Assembly: GCA_950295325.1 (NCBI GenBank)
Contig: OX485807.1
Coordinates: 52,110,440-52,174,439 of the forward strand
Reading direction: 5' to 3'
Source of the DNA: Polytrichum commune
Taxonomy: Eukaryota > Streptophyta > Polytrichopsida > Polytrichales > Polytrichaceae
DNA: 64,000 bases
Below, piece by piece: positions 19,913 through 63,355 of the stretch (position 1 is its first letter; each line of letters opens with the position of its first letter). A model generated the notes under the pieces. The model was not told the DNA's origin. It was given only the letters and a program-made list of their open reading frames with translations, and did no database searches. A program made the position numbers and the translations under genes.

Positions 19913-20109
19913 TGTTCTCTTGGCAGTCTCCATCCCAAGGACTCCTTGTCTACTTGAGGATTTGCACCGTGTGGTGCGATGCGATACGATACGATGCGGG
20001 TAAACTTTGAAATGCGTAGAAAGAACTTTTCGTGAAACATTGGAGTGATAGCCTGCTGTGGTATGCTTTTTGTCTTTCTTGTGTTCAATTTTAGCCATCT
20101 CATGCTATC

Positions 20110-27631: not shown

Positions 27632-30600
27632 TACAGAATTAGTGTAATGTGCGATCTTATGGAATAACACAAAGTCAATATTGCGATATGACAATAATGA
27701 CACTGATGAGAACGTGATGCGTGTGAGCATGTGCTTTGAGTTCTTTGGTGGATTATTTTAATATCAAGAGTTGTGATATATGAGAGGGACATGTGACAAC
27801 AAGGAGGGAAATGAATTGAGCGCGTCCGTTCCCCAGGGTTTTGAGGATATAAGAGAGGGAGTGACATTATAGAGGGTGACATTACAGAGGGAAGGGTGTA
27901 GTGGGCCCGATGAGTTCTCATGAAGATAACAAAAGCAAGAACATTCTAGTTTGCCTTTCAAAATGTTGAGGACTCTGACCATGGATCCACTAAACACTTT
28001 TCAACTTATAACTATATGTCATCCAAAGATTAGAGATTGGTTGTATTCAATTGAGGAATCAACAAAGGTGCACTTCCAATAACCATAATTAAGTAAGGGG
28101 AGGTCTAATGTTCAATATGGTTTTTGTTGATGCCTTCATCTTAGATTTTCCAATGCGACACAAATTTGAAAATGTAATTTGATCAATAGAAGAGACAGAG
28201 AACAAGAAAAACAAGCCAAAGAACACTTGCATACCTTAAGCATGATGCATGTAATCCAGTGCATGTTAAATGGTAATATTAAGCACCACTTACAAACATT
28301 TTGCTATGTTGCCAAACATTCATTTAAGTTGGCAATTCCGTGATATTTGATAATTTGGCATCCTTCTTTTCTTTCCCTTCCTAAAAACACGTGACCTAAG
28401 ATTATGTCCTATCAACTAGGAAGAGATCATTTTAATTGTTTGCATGATCATTTTTAAGGGATTGTTGGCATTGTGATATAAGGTAGATATACCAAAAACC
28501 ATGCCTACACCTTTAGATGTGCCATAGGCTGCGCCTAAAACGGTGACATGCAACATATTATTCCAAAATTATTCAAGTTGTCAAGTTAGGAAGGTGTGGA
28601 GAAGGACTTTGTTCAAAGTGGTTCATACTTTCATACTTTGAGGGTTCTCTTGAATCAACTCTCGATACACGAAAAGAAATAGGCAGCAATCATGCTTAGT
28701 GGGAGTAGAATTATTGGTTTTCCAAGATTCGATTTGTGCAATTGAGACCACAATTTGTGATTCGAGGAGAATGAATGTGGTGGTTTCGAAGACACTGCAC
28801 TACCACTTCTCATGCCATTTTGAAACCAACATATTGCAAAGAAATGGTATCCTAACTAGGGACCCAAGTGCTCTCAAATATCTAACTTTGAGCATGTTGA
28901 TTACAACTAATTCATAGCTTCAATCCGGTTGCTTTGTGTCATGTTACGGGGAGCAATTTGTGTGATCACTTGCAAGGCCATTGTGTGATCAACAAGCATG
29001 TCCATTGAGTAGGTTTTTGAGGTGATTAGGTTGTGTGACTCGAGAGTGGACGTGAAAAGTGTCGCGTGCATGCGTAGAATAGATTCGACACGTTGAAAAA
29101 CATTTAAGCTAGGTTTGGCAAGTTGACAAAAATTCAAAGAGAACACAAGTAGCTTTTGTGTGCACACAATATGTATGAAGAGAGAAGTTTCAGATTTGAT
29201 GTACGGGCTTTGAATACAGTAAGTCATGAATTACAGAATACATCACATGAGAGTCGTTGATCGGGACTCAACTAGTGGATTATTCACCACAACAACAATG
29301 TCAAGATTTGGGGAAAAGTGGCAACTTCCGAAGCAGAGGGAGTGGTGATGTGTAGTAGCGGCGGAGGGGGGGGGCTTGGGTACACCTACAAAGCATGGCC
29401 CCTCATTTGCAAGCTAATGCACAATGGCTTTAATTTGCACCCCAGAAACGCACATCCTTGCCAACCCCATTAGTCATTGGCAACACAACGCCACAATCCA
29501 AGACTCCAATCGCATGCACATGAGGAGAATGTTGGCATCATTGAGGACATCACCGCCGCGCCATTGATTTAATGTAAACTTCAGGTACAATTCAAAACAT
29601 CCTACAAGACATCTCAAACACTTGTGGATTTTAGCCTAATATGAAGAAACGAGAAAGAGGGAGACCAACTGCATGCACTCAAAGAAGGTAGAAAAATGGT
29701 AACTAGATGGACAAGGAGCTCAAGCAAGCACTTGTAGCATGGAACCGTGGACTTAACATGAGACATGCAAGTCAAAAATTGAGAATCCCTTACAATAGTT
29801 TGAGAGATCATACTTACAGTGTCCAAATTTCTCGAAACCATGGCGTGTCTAGGGTGCTCACTCATGAAGAGTAGACCAAGAATCTCTAATTGGCTTTTTG
29901 TGATGGATGAGTAAGGCTTGGGCTTGTCACCCACAACATCTAACTTAAGGTCAGTGAGATTTGCATGGACATGCCAACTCCATTTCAAAATGGAATACCC
30001 AGGAAAGGATGGATGTGTACCACATGCTACTATGGCGATGCAACCATGAGCAATATGAAACAAATTATCTACAATTAGCAAATTATTTTGAGCTAAGGTT
30101 TTAAATGGCAAAGGCCCTTTCAAATGGTAAGTTACAAAAAATATTAGCTCACTGTTAGAATGAAGAATGTTTTATATCATTAACTCCCAAATTAATTACA
30201 TACTTTATTGCCGATTTCACTGCGGGAATGAAAACCCAATTATTTGCTTATTTACTAGGTGGAAATGAACATTTATGTTGGATTTTGAACCTTGTAGTTG
30301 AGGTGCACTCAATATTATGTCGTTTGTGCACTAGATGGCCTTCATAAAAGCAAGGACAACTTTTTTTTGAAGTCAGGTGGGACATCATTTTTTGGTCAAG
30401 TTCCCCCCCCCCCCCGAAAAATTTGGGGTTGCAGATCACAGGCCCTGGCCCTTATCCTATCATAAAACCCCTTCCTCAAAAAGCCCATTGGAGGTGCTTT
30501 AGCACCTGGCCATTCATTCTTTCAAGTATGAAATGGCCTTCCCAGATCCCCAACTCTGTGCTCATGGCCATGTCACAATGTCGAAGGATTGACAATGTCC

Positions 30601-31529
30601 AAAAAGCACAGCAACCAGTGCATGCGAAATTTCGTGACCCGATTTTGGGCAGGCCAAAACCCAAAGGCCTCCGTTGGAGTCCACCACAGCATAATAATAT
30701 TTGGTGAACAACAATTACACACGTTTTGCTGCTTCTCAGCATCAACTCATTCACGTCAATGCAAAGTCTTCCAGCCAGCCCTTTTCTTGAGACGAGTAAA
30801 GGAAGCGAGCCTAAAGTCGCTTGCCTCTCTTAAATCGGCACCTTTAGTTTGAGTGGTGTGCGGTAGGGTGGTGGATCTCAGAACAGACACAACATGTTAA
30901 GAGAGAATTGGATGATGTGTTAAAATTCTTTTGTTGATTATTCTAGGTCCAACAGTCAACAAAATTGGGTAGTCAACATATTCGGGAGGATTTATGTGGT
31001 CATTTGAGAAGGATGTATTTTTGGTTGCTTTGATAATAAAATTAAGATTTAAGTATATTCGAATCTATGCATGAATTTTGGACAACTTCAATCGTCAATA
31101 TGATGTACACCACACTGCAAAACTATACAAATATGGTGGTTGGCAAACATGGTATACGAATTATACTCAAAGTTGTGGTTGTTGTGTTGTTGCTTTTGTT
31201 GTTGTAGTTTGATGGTTTTGTTTCCACAACTACACATCCCCTATTATTTTTGGACAAGTGGTTTGTCCAAATATACTTCAATGTCAATTATGACCAGGAT
31301 ATTCACATGAGCTTTGAATAATGAGGAAGATGGCTATGGCTTTAAATTGGATTTGCTATTGTAGTTTAAATAATGTTCAATATCGTAAGTGAAGTGGGCT
31401 AGGTAATTGAAAAAGTAACTACGCAAGACTTCTCTACCTTACGTGATTTTCTTCAAACTCGGTCGACGGAAGCTGCCACTAAATGTTTCATAATATAATC
31501 ATGATGTTGGAGAATTGAAAGTGTTCTAA
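27632..31529. other. Unassigned spacer in arm A'
   Basis: Mirror of 2661-6558. Nothing recognisable as a gene. The two substitutions I noticed between the arms fall here, at 28950 and 30402. Confidence 0.6.
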
Positions 31530-31861
31530 GGGTGAGTTTCCATGTAGGTTGTTTGCCCACCAAATTCTAGTGGGAATAAAGACAAATGTAGATGGAATCT
31601 AGTGGGTTGGTGTTAGTATGTGCCAACCAACTATTGCTATTCAAGAGTTTAATATTCTTATGTGTCAACTAATTTTTACTATTCTAAGTGTTTAGTGGGT
31701 GCATGGAAGTCTAACAACCAAGGCCACGGCCCTCCATCTTCTAGTAGGCCACAAAAAATTGGTTGCTTGGTCGCTTGCTTTTTGTTTATTTACAAGTGAA
31801 CACCTCTAGCCCACTATTGTCTACAATCTAGTGGGCGAGTGGACTACATGGAAACTCACCC
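31530..31861. mobile_element. Tourist-like MITE (mirror copy)
   Basis: Mirror of 2329-2660, with TAA on both sides and GGGTGAGTTTCCATGTAG ends. Confidence 0.85.
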
Positions 31862-31989
31862 TAATTGCAACTATTATAGAACTATCATGTTTGCAAATCT
31901 TTAGAAGTACATGTGATTTTGGAAGTAAGTGTGCACTCATTGCTTTCTATGGCAAGTTATTAAGGGTATAGTAGACACATAACATATAT

Positions 31990-33001
31990 AACACTATATT
32001 CGCTAATTTGAGACATTTTCTTATCTCAAATTAATATGTGGACCACAACAACATGAATTGGCCTGAAACTATATTGTCAACAATCTCAAATATATTATCA
32101 GTTTAGTATCCCCAAATCAGTGGTTAGCTGACATAAGCACATTGGGTAGAGCACTTGAAACCAACTTCACGAAAGAAATCATACACAATGTTGGCTATTA
32201 TTAGCATGTTAAATAAAATATAGATACTACGACCTACAAACCATCGTGCAAAAAAAACATATTTATTTAACCCTACAATTTGGTCCCTAACAAAATAATA
32301 AAATAAAGTTCACATTTGTTGTGAAATATTCTATATGGATATTCATCCAATCCCGATGGAATTGGAGCATTCCTAAGTTCAACCCAAACTCTACCCCTAT
32401 TTTGAGGAGCACACATATGACCAATATGTATCTACTATAGTTACATATGAAACTATAATTATTATGATAACATAATCCTACCAACTTCTCATTCAACGTG
32501 GCATGCTTCTTGTGCGATCCGAGCAAGGTGGTCTTTTGCAAAAGTTATGTACTTTTGAGGGATGGACACTAATCCACTATGATTTTTTCGTGGTATCCAT
32601 GCTATGAAGATGGAATCTGTATCTATCCAAGATGGACTATGCTCAGAATCCACCTTCCATCAAAAGTTATGGTTTGTCTCCCTGCCTCTATGTGTAATGC
32701 CGAATCACATTTTCATTTTGTGTCATCGGTCGGTAGTACTCCACCTAAATTTGTCAAAAATAAGGCCTAGAAGTTGCAAAATTTGGTTTGGACAAAGCTC
32801 TTGCCACCCACATTGGCTTTGCATATGTCTCAACTCCAGGATGCAAAATGAGCATAATATAACCTTTATAACAATCCACTGTAATACGGAATGATGGTGG
32901 GGGCGGTTACTAGCAGGTCCGACGTAATGGTCGTCCACATCAAACTCCTCTCGAACCTCTTCATTTCCCAAAAGGCTAGCCTCCGAAGTTTATACATCGA
33001 C
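31990..33001 (-). mobile_element. Relic of the large transposon family, left part
   Basis: It begins with the terminus AACACTATATTCGCTAATTTG at 31990 and includes the decayed transposase C-terminus at 32488-32971. It is broken at 33005 by the younger element. The other side of the break resumes at 49429. Confidence 0.75.
32488..32971 (-). pseudogene. Decayed transposase C-terminus (mirror copy)
   Basis: Mirror of 1219-1702. In A' the upstream part of the same reading region can be followed on the far side of the inserted element (49429 to about 49520), confirming that the relic was once continuous. Confidence 0.8.
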
Positions 33002-33005
33002 TCAT
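33002..33005. other. Target-site duplication TCAT, left
   Basis: TCAT directly precedes the AACACTATATTCG terminus and is repeated at 49429-49432 directly after the other terminus. Confidence 0.8.
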
Positions 33006-33244
33006 AACACTATATTCGTTAATTGGAGACTTTGGAAAGTCTCAAAATAAATTGGACCCGTAGTTTCGGATGCGAATATTGTGAACGTAGCGAACATGGG
33101 GAACATGGGGAACAATGACAACATAATGTTTTAAAGATCCATATGTGATGAATATATATGTTTCTAAATATAGTAATTATTCAGTTGATAATCAAAACTA
33201 TGCCAACACAATATTCCAATGACACGAAATTGCAAATTAGCATC

Positions 33245-33523
33245 TGCAATATAATTATATAGTTTAGGGTCCACATCCGTAAAAACACAGACATAAAAAA
33301 CATTTGGATTCCACATCCGTAAATCAATGCATCCATGCAATATAATTATATAGTTTAGGGTCCACATCCGTAATAACACAAACATAAAAAACATTTGGAT
33401 TCCACATCCATAAATCAACGCATCCATGCAATATAATTATATAGTTTAGGATCCACATCCGTAAAAACACAAACATAAAAAACATTTGGATTCCACATCC
33501 GTAAATCAATGCATCCATGCAAT
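33245..33523 (-). repeat. 91-bp subterminal tandem repeat with palindrome half-sites
   Basis: Mirror of 667-945. It contains six CCACATCCGTAA-like motifs (one reads CCATAA), each matching one arm of the 22-bp palindrome (TCCGTAAA). It lies 240 bp from the left terminus. Confidence 0.85.
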
Positions 33524-33644
33524 ATAATTGTAATCTATAAAATTGCTATAAAATGTGTCTAATATAGTATTCGACCCCAATGTCATATATTTTATGAAAA
33601 ACCAATACACATTCAAATATCTTTGGTCCAAACCTACGTCAATA

Positions 33645-36600
33645 TCATTCACCATCTTCATCTTCTGCTTCATTTCCATTCTCGACATTGTTTTCTGCAG
33701 CAGCAATACGTGCCAAGTTGTCTTTGGCAAAATCTATATGTTTTTGGGGGATGGTCATTGTTTCAATTTTGGAACCTTTGCGTGGTTTCCAAGCACAAAG
33801 TATGGTATCCGTGTTTATCCATATTGGTTCGTATGCTGAGTCCATTGTCCATTTGAAACCTTTTTTCGTGTCCCACCCTAAATATGTGCGGAGCACATTT
33901 TGATCTTTGGTGCTTGGACGGCAATATTCCACCTCAATTTGACGAAAATTTGGGCTAGTTGGAACAAAATTTGGTGATGACAATGCTTTCACCAACCAAA
34001 TCGGTTTAGGATGTTCCTCATCTCCAGGACGTACGAGGACCATATAACCTTCGTAGCAATCAATAGCCACACGAAATGATGGAGCCGGGCGATTACGAGC
34101 AGGGCCAACATAATGGTCGTCCGCCGCGAACTCTTCACGGACGTCCCCATTGTTGAAGAACATGGCCTCAGATTCCACGATTGTCACTCGGCTTAGTGGC
34201 CAAAAACCTTGTGTCAAACATGATGGTCTATCGTCTTCGGGTGCTAGCAACGCTGAGCGGATGCGATCCCAATACGCAATCAATGGTTCGTGGGTATCCC
34301 GAACACGTCTTGTGATGTCTTCCTCGTACAAATCTTTCCAGTACTCGATGAATCCAGATATACCTTTGATGATTTCTGGTCCATTCCTCATGGGGTTGGG
34401 TTTGCAAGGCTTCGGCTCCCCATCAGGTAGCATACATTTGCCATCTTCGTTTTGGCGCCATACGAGTATCCCTTCCTCTGGGCCCCAATTCGGGGAGGTA
34501 CACAAAACTTTGAATTGCATGGCCGGCAGACCATCATCACGTATATAGAATCGGAATTGTTGAGCCTTGGTATGGCCCACTAAGCGGTCACCTCCCTTAA
34601 GAATGAATGGTTTGATAAACGATTTGAAATCGGGCACTTCTTCAATCAAATGCGGGATGACTGGCACATTATCCAAATCCATGTACGATTTCATGAGAAG
34701 AGGAATTGTGGGAAAATCCTCCTCGTGCAACTTCATACTCCAACGTCCGAATGAAGCGTCAATGTCATCGTGCGTGTGGCCAACCATCAAAAAAGACACA
34801 AACACTTCTTTGAAAATGCCCTTGGCTACGAGCAATGACCAAAAACAAAATACGTATCGACATTTGTTGTCCTTGGCACAATTGTCTAGTTGCACGTGTA
34901 GAGTTGGAGGCAAAGGTTTAACAATAACGGGTTGTTCAGGCGGTTCTTGCAGTGAAGATAGGCAAACCTCCTTCCCCTCTAGCACAGCCTCATAAATCGG
35001 TGTTGTTCCACATCCAACAAAAAGAGCACGAGAGGATGATGTGGGCGGACTCTCAAGATCTCGTAGAAGTTTTGCAAAAGACCCTACGGTATGATTGGCG
35101 TCGCCAGGATAGAAATCCAAGCCATAATGTGCATATTTCACGTCCACATGACCATGTGCGATCATACCTGCATTTAGCCACACAAATCGTATATATGAAT
35201 GAAATTCAAAAATTTCCCCAAGCAAGCAAAAAAATGTACACTTACGGACGTACATCCGTAAATCTTAACAATGAGTATGTGGGCGCGCAAAAAATAAATG
35301 TGAAAACCAACAAACCTGTGACAGATATTGGAAGCTTGAAATATCCATCTGTAGCCTTTATTTTCCGCGCATAACAAGGGCACGCCGTCTTTGTATGGTC
35401 CATTTTGTCATGAATGATTGTCAAAACCTCATTCGGCCTCATTATCGATAATGCGCGATTCTTGTAGTAGTCTTGACGGTGTGCCTCCTGGTTGTTGACA
35501 TGCTCAATGTATTTCAGTTGATGTCGGTTGTGGGACTCAGTCCCAATGGGATGTGCATCTCGAAGGCCTTTATATTTCTGACAAGCAGAACACCTGGCAA
35601 ACTTATCCCCAGGTCTCTTCGTAATGTATTCTGCGAATTGTTGATTCTTGATCACACTCAATTTTGACAACGAAATCGGCCCACATCCAGCCTTTTCGCC
35701 AACTTCATTAACATCCATAAGTATGTTCTTCCATTTTGTCCCTGTAGGCAAAACCATCTGTACAACCTTTTCCCCCGACGGCAGAGTCCGCGTCTTGTGT
35801 GGCATCGCATCTGCCAATGGCATAATGATGGTTGATAGTGTTGCAGCCGCTTGGAGTGTTGCCTCCCTAGGCTTCTTTGTGCCAGAGTTGCCATGGAACC
35901 GAGAACGGCGTCCTTGCATCGAGTAGTTCCGGAACCTATAAAAATTTGCCTTTGAAACTGCATGTATAATGTACCATGCCTTGCAACATATCTCCACATT
36001 TTCCAAGGTTACAACCTTACGACCTTCGACATCAAGGTGCATGTTGCGATGGACTTCAAGTTTCTTTGCAGATCGCATACGAAAGTCCGCGAGCCACATC
36101 TCTTGTCTCAAAGATTTGATCTTGTCACGGGGAAATAGTTGGCAACATCTCTTTGCACAACAATCCTTTGTTGCTACGGACCTAATAGATGCATCTCCCA
36201 ATGTTTGATCTCGACGACGTTGCGTGGGTTCACGAGGCAAACGAAAGGAATCATATTTACGCCGACCTATTCTAGGGCGCGTTGTGGAGAACAAAGCCGA
36301 TTGCATTTGATCAAAACGGCGGGCATGATTCCACAAGCTGACACCATCATGAAGAACACTGCGCAACGACCATCGATGAAGAGAGAATCTCCAACCAGAA
36401 GGCACTTCCAACGGATGTAAGGAATTCAAAATGCACACCCCCACATCTTCTTCCCCCAGGGGATTTGCATCAATACAATCCGTAGGATTCGAGTTCCGAC
36501 AAACACCATCGGCCACGGGGACGCCACATCCATTGACTAGGACGACATCAAGATCAATCCACTGCTCCCGCGAATAACCCTCACATGGTGGAAGGAATTC

Positions 36601-36725
36601 ATCCTCTACATTGGCGACACCAATTGTAGTATCTTGTTCCACGACAACTTCAAACTCGCTATCATAGCTTGACGCTTCCGAAAAAAAATCAACCCCACTA
36701 TCACTGACGTTGGAATCCATGGCCA
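33645..36725 (-). CDS. Transposase-like protein, two coding exons, 975 aa
   Basis: Coding exons are 35316-36720 and 33645-35167; the 148-bp intron (GTTTGTTGG...ATGCAG) joins the frames exactly. The ATG at 36720 is chosen because it lies five bases after a good splice acceptor (TTTCTTGTAG), so the upstream Met at 36780 is probably intronic and the gene has a 5' leader intron. Cysteine motifs (CCAKRCC, CSACQKYK) precede a presumed RNase-H-fold core: acidic residues at about 438/441 (HDKMDH), 563 (QLDNCAKDN) and 602-605 (GHTHDDID). This pattern fits proteins with the plant/fungal DUF7869-type domain and a DDE/D transposase, an inference from motif spacing. The N-terminus and C-terminus are acidic. 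The frame is free of stops, and the last 180 codons are duplicated at 1-545. Confidence 0.8.
35242..35261. repeat. 22-bp palindrome, variant, in the transposase intron
   Basis: TTACGGACGTACATCCGTAA lies inside the 148-bp intron 35168-35315. It differs from the perfect form mainly in the centre. Confidence 0.85.
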
Positions 36726-37700
36726 CTACAAGAAAGCCCAATGAAGAGTATGTCAAAATATCCCATTCAATAAATGTCATGGATAGCCCTAACGCTTGTT
36801 ATTGTCAATGAAACACAATGTGAACAATAGTTGATATCATGGCTTGGAAACAAAGCTAGCATTGGTATACGAACGTGCGTCCGTATACCTCCATGTAACA
36901 ACATTAGCAACGCAAGCACACGCGTAGACGGATACATTTATGTGTTCATAGTCAGCGGAAAGGTGATGACAACCAAAACACCACTGTTTTATGGACGCGC
37001 ATCCGTAAATCGGCTCCTGCACACAGTGCAGTATCATGCTAAACCACAACATAGGTATACGGACACGCGTCCGTAAAAATGCAGTCCTAGACATGGAGGT
37101 TCGGGGAAGCAAGAGCTCCTGGCAACAGGGCCATGTATACGCAGGCCTGACGACTCATGAAATTTGAAGAGGTTATCATACGCACTTCCTACTATGTTCT
37201 ATCAATGTCAAATATTATACTATGACACATAGGGTGATGTAGGCTAAGGGATGCGAGCTCCCAACCCTTCATGACCGTACAACCTCTGTGCAATCCCCTA
37301 CATGGCACATGGTCTACAAAGGTTTCCAGGTTTACGGACGCGCGTCCGTAAACCTCTGTGGACCTCTTTACTAGCCTGAATACGATGTACAACGCGACAA
37401 GGGGTTCACGTTTTACGGACGCGCGTCCGTAAACTTCCATGGCAATATATTCGCATTGTGGTACTCGACACGACACGGTCTGTAGGTGACATACAGACAC
37501 GACACGACACGTGGTGTAGGTGACATACAGACTCGACACAACACGTGGTGTAGGTGACATATGGCACCAAAGGTATGGAGGTTTACGGACGCGCGTCCGT
37601 AAACCTCAACGTACATGAATATTGGATCAAACAAATAAAGGTTCAAAGAACCAATATGATTAAGGTTTACGGACGCGCGTCCGTAAACCTCCGTGATTTG
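36726..37700 (-). promoter_or_regulatory. Presumed leader intron of transposase gene with seven palindromes
   Basis: Upstream of the acceptor at 36726-36727 lie seven palindromes at 36864-36889 (GGTATACGAACG-type arms), 36987-37010, 37056-37078, 37331-37352, 37412-37433, 37582-37603 and 37666-37687. The last four are perfect 22-mers. No donor or leader exon could be fixed, so the region may instead be promoter. A telomere-like TTTAGGG tract follows near 37825. Confidence 0.6.
37331..37687. repeat. Four perfect 22-bp palindromes
   Basis: TTTACGGACGC joined to its reverse complement occurs at 37331, 37412, 37582 and 37666. In three of them the self-complementarity extends outward through the flanks (AGG/CCT, or GAGG/CCTC at 37582). 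Confidence 0.95.
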
Positions 37701-39210
37701 CGGCGTTAAAATCGGAACATTGCACCAGAAAGGATAACTGTCCGAAATAAAAATCCAGCACACTACAAGGATCCGGAGAGTGCAACCCAAATACAAATTC
37801 TCTACCCTAATGGGTTCAGGGCTTGGGGTTTAGGGTATAATAGGTCCATGCAATAGGATCTTTACCTGCACAAAATCTGTAGCAGGAGCACACTACAAGG
37901 GTCCAAGGAGTGCAACCCACAATTGAGATGCAAAAAGAGTCCCGACGGTGGGGGGGTGTCCCCTTAAGTACTGATCGCTTTCCCTTGGATCCGTTTTCCA
38001 ACATAGGATACCAGCCACCAACTATGTCCTATAAATACAAACCTAGCATTACTACATTCCGTGTGCCAGCCTTACAATGGAATGTGTATTCATGTGGACA
38101 ACATGCATAGACCATGAGTCCACATAATGACAAAGAAAAAGGCATCTATGTATTTGTGGTATACAACAAAGTAGATTGGCTAATATTATATGAGCAATAA
38201 ACATTGTTGAGAGGTGGTTTATTGGAGCAATAATATTGGAGTACCTAATATGAAGAGTACATTTTAAAAAACGTAGGCAAAAAATTATACAATCGTGTGA
38301 AAAATCAACCACAACAACAACAATAGTACATGGAGTATAAAAATATCTGATACAGAAACATTGATTACCGTAAGGCCATGATAGTAGCACATCTATTCTC
38401 CTAGGTAACATGGGTTGCATTAAATTCAATATTATCAATTTTCTCTCTAAACCTTAGGGGCCCCTTCCGTACATCAACATTTACTTCAAAAAAACTAATT
38501 ATACTAGCCTTCTTCATGCACTATACGTGAGGAAAAACATATTTTAGTACCTCATGTACATTACCTACATTAATTAATACTCAAACAATACCAATTGTTG
38601 CTCCAAGTAACATTATTACCCTCAACCCTAAACCCTATAACCACCCAAACCTAAACAAACATGTGGACATAGAGATGCAAGCATGGTTAACTGAACAACT
38701 CCTGATACATGTCAAGGCTTAAGTGGAAAGTAATTCAAAACAAGCAAGCAAACAATTATACCAATTGTTGTTCTACGTAATACTATTAACCCATAAAATA
38801 TAATGGACAAAAAGGGAGGGTAGGGTATCCAAATAGTAATAAGGCAACCAATATTAAGTCGGTGACACAAGGGGGATACCCTTAACCCTAAACCCTAAAC
38901 CCTATAAACGACTCCCGACTCATGTCAAGGCTTAAAATTCTCTAAAACAAAACCATAAAGATTTCAAAAGTCAAGCAAATTTATGTTCACAAATTATTCT
39001 TGAAGACATGGTAAGTGGTGAAAAAGTAGGTGACATAGAACAAATATTTATCAAATTGTGAATGGCAATCCGATATGTGGTCTTAATTTGGCTAAGGAAA
39101 AAGGTACTTGGGTTGCATAACCTTACCTTTCATTTTTTTAATCTTTGTTTGCCTGGGTAAAATCCACCCCTTAGAGGCAAGTACAAGATTTAGCCGAGAC
39201 TTGTTATTCT

Positions 39211-39440
39211 TTGATGGGATACAATATGAAAACAATTAAGCCTTCAAAACATTTAAGATCATCAAAGTTATGTTCTAAGTCATATTTATCCATTTGCTTT
39301 AAACCTTTACTTTTGAAGATAGGTTTTGAACATCATATATTGGTATTCTATAATCGAATACTTAACACAACCATACATGTCGCCATGGAAACAAAACTCC
39401 AATATAAACAACAATTTGCTACTACTTATAGGCGATAATA
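39211..39440 (+). repeat. Dispersed repeat shared with arm B
   Basis: It is similar to 15290-15525 (AAACATTTAAGATCAT..., AACAATTTGCT-ACTT...AGGCG). Divergence is substantial, so it is older than the arm duplications. Confidence 0.5.
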
Positions 39441-39989
39441 CAAGCTCATGCCTAGGTTTGGAAGGATTGCATGAATCCTGAAGGTTGTTTAATGGACAAG
39501 AGGGATGTAAATTCAACACCTACCCATTCCTTTTGTTCTAATACAAGCTTAGACCTATGTGCAAAGGGATTGAATTAACCCATAACGTTGTTTAAGATAT
39601 TATAAGCATTTGATCTTAACCCATATTATCTCGATGTTTGGTTTTGTTAATTGTGTTTCAAACATGCTTAATTTAAATATCATTAATAATGATATTCACA
39701 TCAAAGCATCCCAAGTGTCCAACTTCAATAAAGTCCCCAAGTTGCTATTGATAGTATAATTTAGGTTGAAAATTCCCTTTCACAAATTATTGCGATAATT
39801 GAGGGATTCATAAGGGTGTAGGGGTTTAGGGTTAATTGAATTTTTGGCCAATGGGTATATTATTGTCCCAATTGCATTTGAATCCCACCTTTGTGGAAAA
39901 AAAATTATACTTAACTTAATCAAGAAGACATACTTTATATTCAATATTATTACTATTCTCAAAATATAAAGTCCCCTCCATACCTGCTA

Positions 39990-40159
39990 CACTAGAAATG
40001 GTATAATTTAGTTTCACTCATTGTTTGGAGTTACAAAATGCTTTATCTTTTTATTGTTGATGTTATTTAATTGATGCCAATGACATAATATACAATGAAT
40101 ATTTAATATAGCATTCCATAATTCTAAATATTAAGCAATACTACTTATAATATTTAGTG
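39990..40159. mobile_element. CACTA-ended MITE, 170 bp, inside the transposon
   Basis: The left end CACTAGAAATGGTATAATTTAG, continuing TTTCACTCATTGTTTGGAG, matches the left end of the MITE at 15600. The right end is ATATTTAGTG. TA flanks both ends. Confidence 0.55.
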
Positions 40160-40919
40160 TACTAGTAATTTAAAGCCCGCTTACCTTCATATTACAACAA
40201 GTCCACAAAGAAAATCTTACACTTGAGTTACTCAACCTCAACCCATACTTCAGAATTATGTTTACTATTGGGCCTAGATGGTTATTATAATTTGAGCATT
40301 GAGATTCATTTATTTTTGGTCAACAATTGTTTTTGGTATTCGTTTTTGGACTCAAACCACATACAATCCATCCTCTATAAATGTGATGCTCTGGAATATA
40401 ATTTTCCTTACATTTATTGTGAGTTAACATTGTAACAACTATAAAGGGAGCTTTTTGAATGCTTAACAAATTTGATTCATTACAATTATGGAGGGAGAGT
40501 TTTGCAAAATTATCAAATATCAAATATGTGTATCAATCACAATATAACCCATATTAATAATTTGATCACAAAAGTCAAATTTGGTGGCTTTTGCCACTTT
40601 GAAAGGTTGTGACTCAATGTAATGGATGTCATCTCACAATATTGGATGTAGTTCGTAGGTTAACATTTATAAGTGGCAAATTAACAAAGAGGGGAATAAA
40701 TTATTCTTAACATGTAACAAAGTTTACATTCTAGTCAGCAATATGAGAGGAGTACGAATTTGTTAACAAATACAAATATGAGTTAACATGTAGAAGTGTA
40801 ACATTTATCGAGGGTGGACTCTAGCAATCACAAAAAAGACCAATAGACATATGCCACGTAAGGGTTACATGTGGCCTTTGGGTGCGGGGTGATGGGATGT
40901 CTAGGTAAGGAGTGGATGC

Positions 40920-41182
40920 GACGTTTAGGGTTTAGGGTTTCGATACACTCCCTTGCTCTTCGCTCCTTTCGCTCCTTTTTGCTCATTTCGCTCCTTTCGC
41001 TTACTCCCTTTCGCTCCTTTCCTCCTTGCCCACCATCGCTCCTTTGCTCCTCGCCCTTGTTGGTCGCCCTTGCTGCTCCTCCTTCTCCTCCTTATTGGTG
41101 TTTATCCTCTTTCTCCTCCTCCTTGCTCTTCATTTGTTGCTTAGTGTCTTAGTTCCACAAGAGCGCCAGGAGCTCTAGGAAG
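40920..41182 (+). promoter_or_regulatory. Pyrimidine-rich probable promoter/leader of the plus-strand gene
   Basis: A TTTAGGGTTTAGGGTTT tract (telo-box-like) at about 40925 is followed by TTCGCTCC-type CT-rich repeats (40965-41130). This resembles plant core-promoter Y-patches. A possible donor is GGAAG/GTGTTT at 41182. A 93-codon open frame across it is compositionally biased and not convincing. Confidence 0.35.
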
Positions 41183-41682
41183 GTGTTTTTTTCTTTCCCT
41201 CACTCCAAGATGTGTTGTTCCAGGTGCTTATTAGGTGATTTAAGTGTATGTTTTGATGCATAAGAGGAGGATTGTGAGTATTGTGTGAGCATGCAATGTT
41301 TTGTTGTACTCACAATTGCAAGTACCATCAGAAATTGAGTAGTTTTTTGCTTGGAGTCTCATTAGGACATTATTGGAGTAGTTTCAGTTGTTGCAAGGGT
41401 TTTAGGGTTGGAGTATTTTCAGTTGTTTCAGAGTGCTCCTCCCTCCAGTTTGTAATTGTCTTCACTTCACTTCAATTCACTTTGTCCAAGTTCTAAGAAA
41501 TCATATGTTTTGCTTTGTTCACTTCTATCTGATGTCAATGTTCAATCCAGTGCAATCTTTGTAGTAGGGTTTTTTGTGTAGGGTCGATGCATTTTAGGAG
41601 CAACACACAGTTTAGTTGATTCTTGAATGTGCACATTGCATTACCAGAGGTTTCTAACTTCAATTTTATTGTTAATTTGCAG

Positions 41683-41728
41683 TCTGTCCTAGCTGCAGCT
41701 GTGGTTGAGCAGCAAACATTGTACGAAG
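41683..41728 (+). other. Candidate small upstream exon of the plus-strand gene
   Basis: A 46-bp segment is bounded by TTAATTTGCAG and GTAAGTGTTT. It would pair with the acceptor TTTGTAG at 42647, creating an intron that contains the whole eight-palindrome cluster. It may be leader or code for SVLAAAVVEQQTLYE. Confidence 0.4.
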
Positions 41729-41984
41729 GTAAGTGTTTCTAGTACATTGCAAATTGAAATGGAACATTCTTCTTAGTTTGGAGTGTAGAATCTGCTATTG
41801 CAATGCAACACCTGATATATTCTAATTTGGAGTGCAAATCCATGTTGCATTCCAAGTAAAGATGAACATTGCACATGAATGGAATGCAACAAAAAACCTG
41901 TTCCGAAAATTTCGGAGCAATATCCAGAAACACAGTAATTGTGCAAAGTAATTAAATTCAGAGTAATTAAAAAATGGCCTGAAG

Positions 41985-42593
41985 TTTACGGACGCGCATC
42001 TGTAAACTTCAGGGAACCCTGGGAATATGCATCGCACTATGTGTGAACAGTTTACGGACGCACGTCCGTAAATTGTAGATATATTTAAAAAGAACTATTT
42101 AAAAACATGAATGGGAAGTTTACGGACGCACGTCCGTAAACTTGAGATATCTAAGTACACTAAATGTAATACATGATACATGTGGAGAGTTTACGGACGC
42201 GCGTCCGTAAACTAGGCAGAGAAAACTATGAAAATCTCATGTATAATACATGTCATGGGTTTTCAAAAAAAATTCTACAAAATATACAAGTTCTACAGAA
42301 CAAAAACAAACTTATTTTCCAAAAATTTACGGACGTGCGTCCGTAAATTAGGGCTACATAAAATATATTATATTCATGGAATATAAAAATAGAGACTTTT
42401 GGATGATATATGTGCAGAGTTTACGGACGCGCGTCCGTAAACTCTGCACGTATATCATGTATGAGATTTTTTTTTATAAGATATCTCAAGTTTACGGACG
42501 TGCGTCCGTAAACTTGACATGTACTATAACATAATACATAACCACATTCTATAAGAAAGGGTACGCAAAGGTTTACGACCGCGCGTTCGTAAG
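41985..42593. repeat. Cluster of eight 22-bp palindromes
   Basis: Copies start at 41985, 42051, 42119, 42190, 42326, 42420, 42491 and 42572. Several intervals are 66-71 bp or about twice that (136). The one at 42420 extends to a 36-nt perfect palindrome (42413-42448); those at 41985 and 42491 extend through GAAG/CTTC and CAAG/CTTG. The last copy (TTTACGACC...) is degenerate. The cluster ends 55 bp before the acceptor of the first large coding exon. Confidence 0.95.
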
Positions 42594-43951
42594 ATAGGCT
42601 TTGCATCCTTAGACCTTAATACTGACTTGTATATTTTACATTTGTAGATGGAATCTACAAAAAGACCCGCTATTGATATATTCGCAGAGCTTGTCCATCC
42701 TCCGCTTCCGAAAGCCATCAAAGACATAAGCCACAACGACCATTACAAGCCACGCGAAGACATTGTAGATAACTGGACAGTTATTGTAGAAAAAGACGAA
42801 AAGGATATATTTGTCCTTAGATTTGCCTATCAAATAAAAGCAGATATACATGAATCCGAGAAGTGGATGAAGGTTAAAAGCTGGACAGTAGAGTGTGCGG
42901 TAGCCCAAGGTGATTATGTTGTCATTGACCTTGAAAATAAAAATGATAGGATCACATTCATTTTGCACGAGTTGTACCATCCGTTCAACAAAAATGAATG
43001 TGAAAATGCCAGCCCAGATGCGTCTTGTTTTAATTTACAGAATGAATTCCAAGACTATGCATGCAATGCACCCTGGACGAGTAAACGGCTTGGACGTCTC
43101 TTGAACAATGTGACAAGAGTAAATGGGGCATTACTAGAAGCCAAGAAAGGAAAGGAGAAAAAACCAGTTCCTGAACGACCTAAACGTGTTCCTAAACACG
43201 TGCCGGAAGCCTCCAGACCCTCACAGAGTGGGGCATCAAGAAGGAGCAAGCAGGCCAGCAAACGCTCTCACTCACAGATGGAGTCTTCAGGGCTAACAGA
43301 GGGTCCAGATGTGAGCTCTACTCTTACTGTCGCACCACTCCTGAAGAAAGGACAACGCCCTGACGCCGAACTTTCCACAAAGATTTTCCAAGAGTTCGAC
43401 GAGAAGACAAAGGGCTGCTGGCCACTTGGAAGATATTTCACGTTTGATGTGGATGTCTACAAATGCCACAAGGGCACGGAGAGCATGAATACTCGTGCCA
43501 AAGAAGAGACCGGGGTGTGGTGGCAAATGAATAACATTATGAACAACCCCAAATTTGATAGGCAAACCATATGTGTGACACCAAAGGATCCTGTGGTTGA
43601 AGTCACAGCGCAAAACTGGCCAATTCTCAAAGATGGAGAGTTCTACATAGTCGACGGCCAACATAGTGTGATGGCTGCAAAAGCTCTCCTAGAGGACGAT
43701 GAGTGAAAGAGCCCTTTGAAAGAGACAATCCGATATTGGAAGGCATTCGTCGTCCATTTCAAAGACTCGAACCAGCTCATCGCAATATCTGCCTTCATGA
43801 ACCAAGGGAATAAAGTGAGGCAGTTCGAGGCTTCATGGGCTGCCAACATCGTGGCTGGAAGGACCTTGTGGGTGGAGCACGATTGTCCCCCAAAAGAGAG
43901 GGAGAATGCAGTCATCAAGAATCCCAAATGGCAGGTATGTCTCTGTATAAT

Positions 43952-43973
43952 TTTACGGACGCGCGTCCGTAAA
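43952..43973. repeat. 22-bp palindrome in intron 43935-44051
   Basis: Perfect TTTACGGACGC palindrome, 18 bp after the donor GTATGT in an intron of only 117 bp. Confidence 0.95.
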
Positions 43974-45417
43974 CTTCTTCCCATCTCCTTCCAATTCTTT
44001 AATTCCTTCAATTTAAACTCTGCCGATTTCTTGTAATACATGGCATTGCAGACATTCAGCAATGCCATCTTGACAAAGTTCTCCAGCATTGACTTGAAGA
44101 CAAGCGGCATGAAGACGGTGCAGGAGCTGAAGGGGGAACTTAAGCTCATCACCGCCACAGAAAAGACATGGGCAATTTGGTTGCGCCTATTCGATGCCTA
44201 CAACAACGGAGACCTTATCAATCCGGATGCAGAAAACACGTACAAGAGCGACTCGAAGGTTAAGGTGCCACCTATCCTGAGAGAGTTCTTTCGTCCCCTC
44301 CAAAGATTGCTCGACTCCGAACTGTACAGAGCGGCACAACACATCCTATTGGAGACTCCGAGGAGGACACTGCCCTACCCCAAAATCTTCCTGAAGCGGC
44401 CGAAGCACATGAAGCCTTCCACGTACCACATTAAGGAATGGTGCGAATACAGGAAGAAGAAGACCATGGCTATAAGGAAGATAAACAAGCTACTGCCCTC
44501 CCACAACCTCACTAATACAGATGGGGAGATAATGTGGGAAAACTGGAGGACGCTCAAGGAGGAGTATCACATCAATGGGGTCTCCATGCGATCATTGATA
44601 AGAGGCGCATCTCCCTTCCTAGCCCAAAGATCTAGGAGGAACGAGAAGAAAGGGTCTATCGACGAAAGAGAGACGGCGTTGTACGTCCATTTCCTTGACA
44701 AAAAAAAGAAAGAAAAATTCGGAGGGGTCGCAAGATTCTGCACTGTTACAACGGCCTTGAAGTTTGGCACATGGGACACACATGCTTCAAGAGCCTCTGT
44801 GAGAGATGACCCCCGGGGTTGTCCGTTCGCACTATTTGATTTCCGTGCATTTCCCGGATCTTGGAGACAAAACGCTAGCGGGACCGCTTTCTATGACAAC
44901 TTCTTCAAGGCCTTCAAGAGCTATCGGTCGCCTGCCCTCTTCGAGCCAAATGTGTGGCTCTGGATCGTAGATCAAGAGAGGTCTGCATCGGTCGTCCAGC
45001 TTTACACATCGACGATGAACCTCCAATACGATCTTCACCACAGCACATACATCCCCGCGAAGACGGAAGGGATCAGTGTTATTGAAGAGGCAAGAGGGGC
45101 GAAGCAGGTCGGGGCTTTGGCACTTTATTTCTTGACACACAAGTCTTCACCAAGTGGGCGGATGCCTATCAAAGCGCAGAACGTGTTCAAGAAAATATAC
45201 TCGTTGCCACCACCACACCCCAAGGAGCTTGTCGCGGAGACTATGTATGCAATCTACCCGGCGTACGAGCTCCGAATGGATTTTTATATTGGAGTCTTGA
45301 AGGCTGTGACTGTGATGAGTGAAACAGTTTACAACGTCTTCGGAGGCACCAAATTTGTTTATGCGGCATTGGTAAGTACTTGTATGCACCTCTTTCCATG
45401 GTTCATCTGAATTGAAA

Positions 45418-45487
45418 TTTACGGCCGCGCGTCCGTAACATTGGCCACACAAATATGCAGTGTAAATTTACGGCCGCGCGTCCGTAA
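45418..45487. repeat. Two palindromes in intron 45372-45568
   Basis: Copies at 45418-45439 and 45466-45487 share the variant TTTACGGCCGCGCGTCCGT; the same one-base change in both suggests local duplication. Confidence 0.92.
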
Positions 45488-46774
45488 ATTGCAGTGCTTC
45501 ATGATTATATTTGTCCTCATACTTGCTTGCAACAATGGAATGACTATAATTTCCTTGTTTTGGTGCAGATGCTTGGGTTGCAGGTAAATTCGTTTGTGGA
45601 GGCTCGCGACATGGATGAGGCGAATACTCATAGGGTTCTTGCCTCGAAAATGGATATCGAAGACATCATCGATATCCTTACCCCCCATCATGTGGTGCCT
45701 CTTGCCTCAAGAGAAGAGGAAACTCCTGCGACGGAGTGGGACAGTGACGGAGACCAAGAGCCCGTCTCCCCAAGAGAGCAGCCAGCCAGACAAGATCACG
45801 TGCCCGGCCTTGTTCGTGATCCTGTTCATCCACATTAATTTGTCTTGGGCGAAGACCGCATGGATACAGAGGGGGCGCATGAAGACTTCACTCCAATAAG
45901 GGTCCATCCTACCCCTATTTCCTCTCCCTTTGGGACTCCCACTTCTCGAGTTGGGTTTCCTTCCACTGCGGGTCCATCGCGTGCTGCTGGGCTTATGGCA
46001 GAGAAGGATGTGGACGTTGCAACAGAAGCCGGATGCACAGCCTCATCTGGAGGGGGCTCTGAACAGGCAGAGCTACCACCTGTGGAGGGTAGAGATGTGC
46101 TGGAGTTGATTTTGAGGCCGGATATCGCCTCATACCGTGAGAGTCGTCGACAGAGGAAGAAGACTCCTTACAACGAGTACCCTGAAGGCGCCGTCTTGGA
46201 ACTCTCCGATGAAGACGAGGATGAGGTTAGGATGTACAATGCCCTCTCTGCGTTGCCTTCTGAACCTGGCAAGGTGAAGAAAGAGCCGATGTCTGTGGCC
46301 GAATTGGACGAGAAATTGGAGAAGAGAATGAAGGAAGAGCTTGACCAACGGCTTCGAGAAGCTAACGAGGAGCACGCCAAAAAGATGGCCGCCATCCAAG
46401 CTGAGATGGAGGAGGCTAGGTTGGAGTCTGCTCGAAGGCACGCCGATCTCATGGCTCAAAATCAACAATTCTTGGCCCAGAGCCAACAATTTATGAGCCT
46501 CATGCAGAGCTTGCAAGCAAGACCCCCAGTAATGTATGCAGCTCCCGAAGCCGGCATGTCGATGCCTCCCACTCTCATGCGGCCTCCGTCTAGTAGCCAT
46601 ACGGTGTACATACCAGAGCATACCTATCCAGCCCCCGCCTTGTATGTCCCGCCCTCTCCCCAGGTTGCCGCCAACCCAGAGCCCTCCTCTCATACCGTAC
46701 GAGAGGAGGAGAGACCTGCACGTTATACGGCAGGTGCTCACGAGAAAGGCGTCATTGAAGACATCACAACCATT

Positions 46775-46855
46775 GGCAGCCAAGAAGATGAAGATATGCG
46801 GGGCAACCAAGAAGATGAACATATGCGGGGCAGCCAAGAAGATGAACATATGCGG
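46775..46855 (+). repeat. Three 27-bp coding repeats (GSQEDEHMR)
   Basis: Nine-residue acidic units GSQEDEDMR, GNQEDEHMR and GSQEDEHMR lie in tandem in exon 3 of the accessory gene, with a fourth unit starting and breaking off. Typical of a disordered linker. Confidence 0.85.
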
Positions 46856-46953
46856 GGCAGCCAAGACACCACAGATGAAGATCAACCTCATGTCGATACC
46901 CAGGGGTCGCAAGCGGCTGGAGGCGCCTTGGTGGTGGAGGATAGCATGCACAA

Positions 46954-46975
46954 TTTTGCGGACGCGCGTCCGGAA
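46954..46975. repeat. Palindrome inside coding sequence
   Basis: TTTTGCGGACGCGCGTCCGGAA differs from the consensus in the outer bases and is read as FADARPEP in frame. It is the only copy falling within an inferred exon. Confidence 0.85.
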
Positions 46976-47066
46976 CCTGTGCCCACGATGGGGCCTGGTG
47001 AGGGAGGCACTGCTGGCGAGGGCCTCTCCGCTGAAGAGGTAATCCACCTTTGAGCTTGCCTCCCAC

Positions 47067-47088
47067 GTTACGGACGCGCGTCCGAAAC
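47067..47088. repeat. Palindrome in intron 47039-47378
   Basis: GTTACGGACGCGCGTCCGAAAC lies 28 bp after the donor GTAATC. Confidence 0.88.
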
Positions 47089-48261
47089 TTCCTTGTCTGC
47101 CAACTTCGTGGCGTGTGCATATTGTCGAGTTCGATGCTCGACTTCGCCCGGCGGGTGGATGCAATTTTGCCAGCATAGATTCAATTAGTTTTAGGGGAGA
47201 CCTTTTGTGACAATGTAAATTATTCGCGAAATGTATTAAACCAATCACATTAATACAAATTTTTTGAACTGCGTATTCGTATTCTTTTTGCCTTATACTT
47301 GTTTGTTGAGTTTGTGCATGCTTGTCAATTGGTTTTCATGGGTAGTACCATTCACCTAGATAGTATTTTCCATCACAGGGTCCGTCGGAGATATGTCGCA
47401 ACCCCGTTGAAATACCAAGCCGGCCCATGAGGAAACCGTTCATAATATTTGACCTCAATGGGGTGCTTTGTCATTCCATGCATATCTCCAATAGTGCGTC
47501 GAAGGGTCCCTTCCGTAGTCCACAAGACATGGATTACGGCGGACAGTTCGATACTCTCATTAACAAGAAGGTTGTACGGGCCCGGCCGGGGTTGAGGTGC
47601 TTCCTTCGTGATGTCCTTGGCTTGGCCCATGTCATCATTTGGAGCTCTATGCTCATGGACAACACGAAGGCCATCGTCGGTTTCCTTTTCCGAGAACTCG
47701 CAATGCCATGCTTGCTTCTCGGTCAAGAACACTGCGATGACCTTTATGACCGTAATGGCAACATTGTACCCAAGGTCGGAGGAGGCCGAGGGCCTCAATT
47801 CCTAAAGGTACTGAGGAAGTACCTTTGGGTGGGCGTCCCTATGTTGGAGGGGGTGCCCCACGGTTGTTGGCCCACCCCGGAGAACACGCTCCTCATTGAC
47901 GACAGCCCGGCAAAGAGTATTCTCAATCCCCCGGGCAGTTGCATATTCCCGGATCCTTGGGAGAGTGATAGAAATGACAACTTTCTAGAGAATGAACTAG
48001 GACCCTACATTAGGAGGCTTGCCTATCACCCCGGAAGTGTCCCGGATTTTGTCCTCTCCAACCCCATTGGCAATAGGCCTCTAGGTCCAAGAGATGAGGA
48101 ATTTAGGAGGTTGTACGGCTATGCCAAACTCAATAAATTAATATGAGAACTGCTTTTTGGGTTTGTACTTGGACTCTCCATGTTTATATCTAACATTTCT
48201 CCCCGTATTTTGTAAATGTATTTTTGTGTCTTAGTTGCCTCACCAAGCATCCCAAAGTCTC

Positions 48262-49118
48262 GTCCATGGCATGTGTGCATCTAAACCGGGCCCCAGCTCC
48301 CCTTCCATCGGTGTGACCGACATTTCAATGCCTTCACTATTTCAATTTTCAGCCGTCGATGTTGCCTCTGCTGTTGATTACTCCAAAGACTCGGGGTTTG
48401 AAGACGGAGTTGTCGATAGCCCTCCTCCAAAGGTTGCAAAACTCAATTACGCTCCATCTCCATCTCCATCTCCCTCCGCAATGAGAAGCACGTTCGAAAC
48501 CCGCGGTCGACCAGACGCCTTTGTATGGATGAACCCCAAATTGGTGTCCCGGCGTTTACGAGCGTCCCTGTTGTGCTTGTGGCCCCCCTCGATGTCGCAG
48601 AAGCTCAAACCACCGCCCCGCAGGCCAAGGTGCCCAATTATTGGCATTCTCAAGTTTTTCCTTCATGATTTCCGTGCATTAGTGCATTTCATATTCTTGG
48701 GTTTTTCGGACTTCCATCCGTAACTTATACTAACCCACGTCATTATATGTATTTATGGTCATTGTTTCAGACCCCAATACACATGAATGTGGGCCGTTCA
48801 TCCTCGACTTCGTCATTGGATAGGCGAACACTGAAGACTGCTTCTTGCGAGTCTGATCGTTGTTTGGCCCTACGGAAGAGTGCAAGACGTTCGGTTTCCC
48901 AAACGCATTCGTATTCCACTTATTCGGAAGGGGGTCGGCAAATATGGGCAAATGGCACATATTCGGGGTCGACAAATAAACAAGGTTACAGCCGCGGACC
49001 CGAGATCTTTAGAGCCATGGAGGCCATGAAAGCAAAAGAACGTGAAACGGCCGTAAATGCTAATAATAGTATTGCAAAAGCAAAAGTAGTGAGTCGTAAT
49101 CATGATCCGAACGTATAG
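48262..49118 (+). pseudogene. Third transposon gene, unrecognised, frameshifted
   Basis: A Pro/Ser-rich frame (48262 to about 48520: DYSKDSGFEDGVVDSPPPKV) must slip one base near 48522 to continue as MDEPQIGVPAFTSVPVVLVA up to the donor AAG/GTGCCC at 48629. The next exon, 48771-49118, follows the acceptor TTGTTTCAG and encodes a Ser/Arg-rich tail ending NHDPNV. The intron contains a degenerate palindrome. No domain recognised. Confidence 0.45.
48703..48724. repeat. Degenerate palindrome in intron 48630-48770
   Basis: TTTTCGGACTTCCATCCGTAAC keeps the outer arms (CGGAC, TCCGTAA) but the centre has diverged. Confidence 0.6.
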
Positions 49119-49428
49119 GCTATATTAACATACATGTAGTTGTGGAATTATGTTTCTAGGACTTTCGCCTAATATTGGATATTCCACTTGCATTTTGTAC
49201 TTCAACCCCTATTCAATAAATATGATATTGATTTTCCATATGCAAATGTTTTCATATATCCCATTTTCTTATTTTTAATGTGTAGTTCCATGCATTTGAG
49301 TCTCTTATTTGTTTCCAAAATTGGGAACATAGCATATTTTTAGTGTTTTCCTTCCTACAAATGTGAAAGCCACGTCCTTAAATAGTCTCAAAATCAACAA
49401 AAAGTCTCCAATTACCGAATATAGTGTT

Positions 49429-49432
49429 TCAT
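49429..49432. other. Target-site duplication TCAT, right
   Basis: It matches 33002-33005. Beyond it, reading the minus strand, TTTTGGCCACAAACATGA continues the relic transposase (compare TTTTTGGCCACTAAGC of the intact gene). Confidence 0.8.
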
Positions 49433-63281: not shown

Positions 63282-63355
63282 TAGTTGATGAAGGTAGGTG
63301 TCTCTTTGTTAAGTATACAAAAAAACGCTTTGGTATACTAAAACCATAATGTTTT

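Follow-up and report, generated by a model that had tools for sequence, protein, structure and literature searches.

Family-specific palindromes recur in introns and upstream regions of DUF7869 transposons in Polytrichum commune

Why does a transposon carry the same symmetric word in most of its introns? The question is raised by a 64,000-nucleotide stretch of the Polytrichum commune genome (GenBank assembly GCA_950295325.1, contig OX485807.1, forward-strand positions 52,110,440 to 52,174,439; hereafter the window, whose coordinates are used below), which contains a DNA transposon with a DUF7869 transposase. We refer to this transposon and its close copies as family F1. Scanning the whole 64 kb window and allowing up to 6 of 22 mismatches, we found 22 matches to the 22-base-pair (bp) palindrome TTTACGGACGCGCGTCCGTAAA, every one of them within 35241-48724. 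Seven are exact, and 11 are exact in both 10-bp arms. A preliminary description of this DNA had reported 22 exact or variant palindromes in this element; we recovered the same count and range, and the places it listed (introns, seven sites upstream of the transposase and one exon) were right. The sites fall in intron A of the transposase (one), upstream of the transposase (seven), in intron C before gene 2 (eight), in introns D (one) and E (two) of gene 2, in an exon of gene 3 (one), in intron G (one) and, as a weak match, in putative intron H of gene 4 (one):

35241-35262: palindrome with 4 mismatches, intron A
36866-36887: palindrome with 4 mismatches, transposase upstream
36988-37009: palindrome with 2 mismatches, transposase upstream
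37056-37077: palindrome with 2 mismatches, transposase upstream
37331-37352: exact palindrome, transposase upstream
37412-37433: exact palindrome, transposase upstream
37582-37603: exact palindrome, transposase upstream
37666-37687: exact palindrome, transposase upstream
41985-42006: palindrome with 2 mismatches, intron C
42051-42072: palindrome with 1 mismatch (spacer), intron C
42119-42140: palindrome with 1 mismatch (spacer), intron C
42190-42211: exact palindrome, intron C
42326-42347: palindrome with 1 mismatch (spacer), intron C
42420-42441: exact palindrome with arms that extend to 56 nt, intron C
42491-42512: palindrome with 1 mismatch (spacer), intron C
42572-42593: palindrome with 4 mismatches, intron C
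43952-43973: exact palindrome, intron D
45418-45439: palindrome with 2 mismatches, intron E
45467-45488: palindrome with 1 mismatch, intron E
46955-46976: palindrome with 3 mismatches, exon of gene 3 (site present here in 7 of 7 F1 copies)
47067-47088: palindrome with 3 mismatches, intron G
48703-48724: weak palindrome with 6 mismatches, putative intron H

Related transposons use the same design with different letters. A DUF7869 search of the genome identified families F2, F3, F4, F5 and F6, each represented here by one copy; two copies of a distant family, F7 and F8, were added later. No F1 site was found within 6 mismatches in F2, F3, F5 or F6 (first 16, 16, 10 and 10 kb, respectively), and each of these families has a palindrome of its own. 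F4 does match the F1 word, its half-site differing at 1 of 10 bases. All families share one geometry, a 10-bp half-site, a 2-bp spacer and the inverted half-site, with six half-sites overall: TTTACGGACG in F1, TTTACGAACG in F4, GTTTGGGTCG in F3, CCCACGGGTG in F2/F5, CCCACGGGCG in F6 and GGGTGAGGCA in F7/F8. In a cross-scan, words cross-matched only between F1 and F4 and between F2 and F6, which are one base apart in each pair. The innermost (tenth) base is conserved at 0.94-1.00 in all six half-sites and the weakest positions stand at 0.58 (F7, position 1) and then 0.71-0.73, absolute values that are inflated because sites were picked for resembling the consensus. Within F3 and F4 the spacer is variable; in F7/F8 it is either TA or CA. 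Regularly spaced tandem arrays occur in F3 (36-40 bp), in F7/F8 (about 59-61 bp) and in some F1 copies (53, 95, 97 or 135 bp). Half-site consensuses contain two CpG (F1, F4 and F6), one (F2 and F3) or none (F7); CpG methylation, which the preliminary description thought might matter at these CpG-rich sites, is thus not the shared principle.

The sites also occupy corresponding addresses. In F1, F2, F3 and F4 (one copy each), introns D, E and G and the region upstream of the transposase all contain sites. A site is present in 5 of 5 introns in F1 (intron C counted, H not), 4 of 4 in F2, 3 of 4 in F3 and 3 of 4 in F4. Coding sequence makes up 35-53% of each of these elements, yet holds 5 of their 106 sites. 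With clusters collapsed, random placement in non-coding DNA gives P values of 0.0003 (F1), 0.0004 (F2), 0.049 (F3) and 0.020 (F4). In F2, F5 and F6 the transposase intron is placed differently from that of F1, yet it has a site inside in all three. In F7/F8 the sites cluster both upstream of the transposase and ahead of the next long open reading frame. A palindrome at joined position 14509 of the F4 copy (L018) seems to share bases with the putative donor splice site of intron G. F2 had been considered as a transposase-only family, an idea that was rejected when its next 9 kb proved to hold homologues of gene 2 and the phosphatase.

We compared the window copy with six further F1 copies. Each of the seven has 21-26 sites within 5 mismatches (159 in total), at the same places in 7 of 7. 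A copy carries 7-11 sites in the region upstream of the transposase, 6-10 in the cluster ahead of the start codon of gene 2, one or two in intron D, two or three in intron E, and one each in the gene 3 exon and intron G; the transposase intron site lies within 5 mismatches in six copies and at 6 in the seventh. Distances from the splice donor are nearly fixed (18-19 in D, 43-48 for the first site in E, 29 in G). In introns D and E of L005, the most diverged F1 copy, the palindromes are kept: identity to other copies is 0.27-0.44 outside sites and 0.55-0.86 inside them, with second sites that have no counterpart counted as gaps. Over all F1 pairs, mean identity inside and outside sites is 0.88 and 0.75 in A, 0.71 and 0.59 in D, 0.76 and 0.54 in E, and 0.94 and 0.87 in G, the last telling little about site retention because that intron is conserved throughout. 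Transposase exon 2 is present in at least 85 copies at 92-100% identity in the 408 Mb genome, 67 of them without a stop.

Genome-wide counts agree. The F1 word occurs in 408 Mb 878 times exactly and 1147 times with any spacer, compared with 0 for its reversed control; the F1 sites are therefore not due to chance. Counts covered five motifs (F6 was left out), and exact matches to the two half-sites around any spacer also number 644 (F2), 9231 (F3), 2909 (F4) and 23 (F7), again with 0 for each reversed control. Exact sites per F1 copy range from 6 to 12 (mean 9.6, n=7), so that 1147 would equal about 120 copies. On contig C1, we counted by eye eight F1-site clusters (50 sites) among the matches listed. 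Six lie within 20 kb of a DUF7869 hit, one is on a matching DNA stretch and one (25.98 Mb) has no assigned element. The preliminary description had said that a motif common outside this family would count against its proposal; as far as seen in these clusters and in the F2, F3, F5 and F6 stretches, the motif is not common there.

Half-sites track the transposases that accompany them. Six families were compared in 15 pairs, leaving out F5 and F8 because they nearly duplicate F2 and F7. Across these pairs, transposase identity and half-site identity correlate with a Spearman coefficient of 0.76, a value reached in 9 of 720 label permutations. Transposases 0.88 and 0.81 identical share 9 of 10 half-site bases, and the match is 5-6 bases at identities of 0.62-0.63, 3-6 at 0.42-0.44 and 1-5 at 0.23-0.27.

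The palindrome pattern is thus real, strongly non-random and more general than could be seen from one copy. Judging from these sequence comparisons, the palindromes are probably binding sites of an element-encoded dimeric protein that has diverged together with them. A transposon-encoded homodimer, either the DUF7869 transposase or the ParB-like product of gene 2, would bind the two inverted 10-bp half-sites, with the 2-bp spacer predicted to be less constrained than the half-sites. The sites lie where coding allows, in front of the transposase, ahead of the start codon of gene 2 and in most introns, so that they cover the element along its length. As site and binder diverge together between families, each family would come to mark its own copies. 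The palindromes would likely let the whole element regulate itself or escape silencing, as VANC proteins enable VANDAL transposons to do. Protein binding, which protein binds and to what effect are matters that we infer, and the effect may be anti-silencing, self-regulation or a step of transposition. The preliminary description had already suggested a VANC-like binding site, and comparison supports this part of it: sister families keep most addresses and the 10+2+10 geometry, and the letters change with the transposase. A more specific version, which we regard as doubtful, is a eukaryotic counterpart of ParB-parS or KorB-operator systems, in which the gene 2 protein would load at the family's palindromes, coat its own element and keep it open or controlled, each family having a private, co-evolving code.

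Several observations weigh against binding by a co-diverging dimer. F3 and F4 lack a site in the transposase intron, and in one F1 copy (L003) that intron carries only a site with 6 mismatches. Exons are not free of sites (1 of 22 in F1, 1 of 22 in F2, 2 of 31 in F3 and 1 of 31 in F4). When every site is counted separately, the placement P values become 0.016 (F1), 0.003 (F2), 0.59 (F3) and 0.29 (F4); moreover, exon and intron limits in F2-F4 were placed approximately, by homology and open reading frames, and a site was used to fix where intron G of F4 starts. The spacer is constrained in some families (CG in 88 of 121 distinct F1 sites, AA/TT in 20 of 22 F2 sites). The pair F3-F7 falls off the trend, with 5 of 10 bases shared at a transposase identity of 0.23, and tracking is expected of any inherited sequence; it fits co-divergence by descent and is no proof of binding. 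In gene 2, the arginines of GxRR, the nucleotide motif of ParB, are missing; DGQHS (F1, F3 and F4) or NGQHT (F2) stands in place of this motif, so a cytidine triphosphate (CTP) clamp is not implied. Finally, the arms also co-vary at positions -1 to -3 beyond the site, something not required of a plain dimer site. In 56 de-duplicated sites of the 159 in F1, flank complementarity at -1, -2 and -3 is 0.66, 0.71 and 0.59, compared with 0.35, 0.44 and 0.39 after shuffling.

This co-variation would suit palindromes that fold as hairpins in the transcript and act in splicing or RNA stability, and so would the intronic position of many sites and the paired, compensating double changes inside them. On the sense strand, the transposase-intron sites (four distinct) further show five G-T against one A-C. 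The excess does not extend to all classes of distinct F1 sites, for which G-T and A-C number 52 and 44 with no clear bias (upstream 20:14, cluster C 15:18, D-F 12:11), and RNA pairing is for this reason not clearly spared. The innermost pair, which a tight loop would set free, is conserved at 0.94-1.00, and the big clusters sit upstream of start codons. The flank co-variation could also be explained by template copying between arms or by an extended contact. We therefore consider the RNA hairpin in splicing, the other suggestion of the preliminary description, unlikely. Dispersed palindromic repeats occur in organelle genomes, and the sites could in principle be functionless hairpin repeats that spread or expand in tandem and are kept perfect by template switching between arms. 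The regular arrays of F3, F7/F8 and some F1 copies and the co-variation between arms would fit, but such repeats would not readily place different words at largely the same addresses, put lone sites in small introns or hold 10+2+10 constant over six half-sites, and in the cross-scan a word shows up only in a near relative; we find this explanation quite unlikely. It is very unlikely that the sites serve a host protein, for example a silencing factor that recognises these elements. High copy number and the several CpG in some motifs would suit such a factor; the family words, however, differ and track their own transposases, and the elements retain the sites instead of losing them.

If a protein of the element binds the palindromes, which one is the candidate? 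The F1 copy in the window has the following features, with the transposase on the minus strand and gene 2, gene 3 (which includes the phosphatase part) and gene 4 on the plus strand. Terminal inverted repeats are abbreviated TIR and target site duplications TSD:

33006-49428: whole F1 DNA transposon, delimited by TIRs and a TSD at both ends
33002-33005: left TSD, TCAT
49429-49432: right TSD, TCAT
33006-33033, plus strand: left TIR
49401-49428, minus strand: right TIR
33245-33529: subterminal array (91 bp x 3.1) with direct single half-sites CCACATCCGTAAA
33645-35167, minus strand: transposase exon 2 (DUF7869; PF25273, E 5.4e-38)
35168-35315, minus strand: transposase intron A
35316-36720, minus strand: transposase exon 1
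41729-42647, plus strand: intron C, immediately 5' of the gene 2 ATG
42648-43934, plus strand: gene 2 exon with predicted ParB/Srx-like (sulfiredoxin-like) domain; in-frame stop in the window copy
43935-44051, plus strand: intron D
44052-45371, plus strand: gene 2 second exon, no known domain found
45372-45568, plus strand: intron E
45569-45838, plus strand: gene 2 last exon, start uncertain by 16 bp
45860-47038, plus strand: gene 3 first exon, coiled-coil-like by eye
47039-47378, plus strand: intron G, or intergenic stretch
47379-48146, plus strand: NIF/FCP1-type phosphatase exon, part of gene 3 (PF03031, E 2.1e-12)
48235-49118, plus strand: gene 4, with putative intron H (48630-48770) inside

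Introns were predicted from splice signals and exon conservation. GT..AG ends delimit introns D, E and G in all seven F1 copies. The donor of intron C was seen in 4 of 7 (mapping failed in the other three), and the intron at 48630-48770 was found in two of seven, the others not having been fetched that far. The in-frame stop of the window gene 2 exon is absent at that codon in other F1 copies.

Gene 2 is a candidate on structural grounds. A model of its first exon, built from ten aligned exon pieces, has a mean predicted local distance difference test score (pLDDT) of 47.6, with blocks at 58-87 over residues 261-380 and lower values after. The best Foldseek match is ParB (7bnr; probability 0.99, E 0.022), and none passes 0.001. 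In VIA-align, where Z scores of 7-8 are common for models without a clear match, rows 1-14 are ParB, Noc, PadC and KorB chains (Z 8.2-11.0 over 90-105 residues; aligned region approximately residues 262-392), followed by SbnI (7.6) and sulfiredoxins (6.3-7.3). Because the ParB family is followed by SbnI and sulfiredoxins, the modelled fold of gene 2 is ParB/sulfiredoxin-like. Sequence-profile searches of PDB and Pfam with the first exon found no convincing match. In ParB, a helix-turn-helix DNA-binding domain follows the N domain. The second exon of gene 2 has no Pfam match over threshold, and its PDB sequence search gave only matches judged spurious, including a designed cytochrome trimer at E 4.4e-5 in which no stretch passes alone. 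A methyltransferase in this exon, a possibility prompted by algal ParB-methyltransferase proteins, likewise found no support in either search. The transposase model is poor (mean pLDDT 54; best Foldseek E 0.12; VIA Z of 6.7 or less), and we claim no fold for it; its VIA rows over residues 395-670 or so are mostly Argonaute chains. Since gene 2 also diverges between families (identity 0.20-0.41), the tracking described above cannot name the binder, and the gene 2 product and the transposase are equal candidates.

The F1 termini are well defined. The TIR is 28 bp long and starts AACACTATATTCG, giving AACACTA ends. A perfect 4-bp TSD was present in all five F1 copies checked, TCAT here and ATGG, ATGT, AATA and CCAT in four others. 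In three of these four, right and left TIR agree at 27 of 28 bases, and in the fourth at 20 of 28. Two to four single half-sites lie near the left end in 7 of 7 F1 copies; as a general trait these were rejected, as F2, F3, F4 and F6 do not show them. A single half-site-like word also occurs in transposase coding sequence (34134-34143, and position 895 of the F4 copy L017), where the difference between F1 and F4 mirrors that of their palindromes; this may be coincidence. The transposon-borne NIF/FCP1-type phosphatase has homologues in F2, F3 and F4.

Two very large inverted duplications mark the surroundings of the window copy, 1-10504 with 23686-34189 (99.98% identical) and 14881-19913 with 58968-64000 (99.96% identical). 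A second F1 copy lies in inverted orientation at C5:52109464, with a transposase exon 100% identical. It probably arose by segmental duplication, not by transposition, because the first of these duplications takes in the left end of the transposon and extends past it. The left flank (32514-32989) holds a coding remnant of a DUF7869 element, approximately 68% identical in DNA, and the F1 element thus seems to have inserted into a decayed relative. Elsewhere, the genome contains arrays of light-harvesting proteins; for one of these, the top matches among solved structures, after a fused chain of 620 residues (9vfj), are the moss structures 8htu and 7xqp, as expected of a plant and probably a bryophyte.

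How do these elements compare with known systems? Literature searches on DUF7869, Polytrichum, palindromes in transposon introns, Zisupton, ParB and transposons, KorB, VANDAL/VANC, Spm and giant bryophyte transposons gave no account of them among the matches listed; for DUF7869 and for Polytrichum no paper matched. In En/Spm, a CACTA element, the element protein TnpA recognises repeated short motifs in the subterminal regions of its own element, and CACTA elements have a 3-bp TSD. Here the TSD is 4 bp, the ends are AACACTA and the sites are internal and intronic, not subterminal. Classification as a CACTA element with subterminal repeats was rejected on the 4-bp TSD and on the CACTA end, which shows no excess in the window (23 matches compared with 18.8 expected). 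VANDAL transposases are Mutator-like (MULE, Mutator-like element). A Pfam scan of the present transposase exons up to E 0.5 gave DUF7869 as the sole match and none to a Mutator-like transposase; nor did a KDZ/Zisupton profile match in that scan, in which no KDZ sequence was compared.

Among prokaryotic elements, plasmid RK2 encodes KorB, a protein of ParB fold, and carries its OB sites (PMC11790492). The likeness, as far as that account extends, is that a mobile element encodes a (predicted) ParB-fold protein and carries its own short sites; the differences are that ours is a eukaryotic cut-and-paste transposon, that the ParB nucleotide-binding residues are not kept and that gene 2 is a candidate binder. 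OB is an inverted repeat. The giant transposon Sola1-1_Ec32 of a brown alga codes for a protein in which a ParB-like part is joined to a DNA methyltransferase, and green and red algae have similar proteins (PMC12477816). Sola1-1_Ec32 resembles the present elements in being a giant eukaryotic transposon with a ParB-like domain, which was proposed to bind its own transposon; it differs in its transposase superfamily and in the methyltransferase, for which the second exon of gene 2 has no match, and the string 'palindrom' is absent from the main text of that paper.

The closest likeness that we draw in logic is to VANDAL elements of Arabidopsis. VANC21 binds a nine-base motif that lies mainly in non-coding regions of VANDAL21 and is repeated in tandem upstream of VANA21 and within introns of VANC21 and VANB21 (PMC5735166), and related VANDAL families use other motifs (PMC5735166, PMC10398659). 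As in those accounts, the Polytrichum elements carry a short motif, particular to each family, in many copies that are partly in tandem and lie in non-coding parts such as introns and the transposase upstream region, and the motif differs between related families. VANDAL tandem motifs share one orientation; arrays occur here in F3, F7/F8 and some F1 copies, and the palindrome itself has no orientation. The present systems also differ from VANDAL in their DUF7869 transposase, in a 22-bp palindrome in place of a nine-base directional word and in a ParB-like candidate accessory protein, from which a molecular hypothesis follows directly. With its six related half-sites, this one genome provides a natural series in which joint changes of a DNA-binding protein and its site can be studied. 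That a plant transposon can recognise itself by sequence is already known from VANDAL/VANC; finding this logic again, with a clean symmetric code, in an unrelated group of transposons that has many open-frame copies would suggest more than one origin for it.

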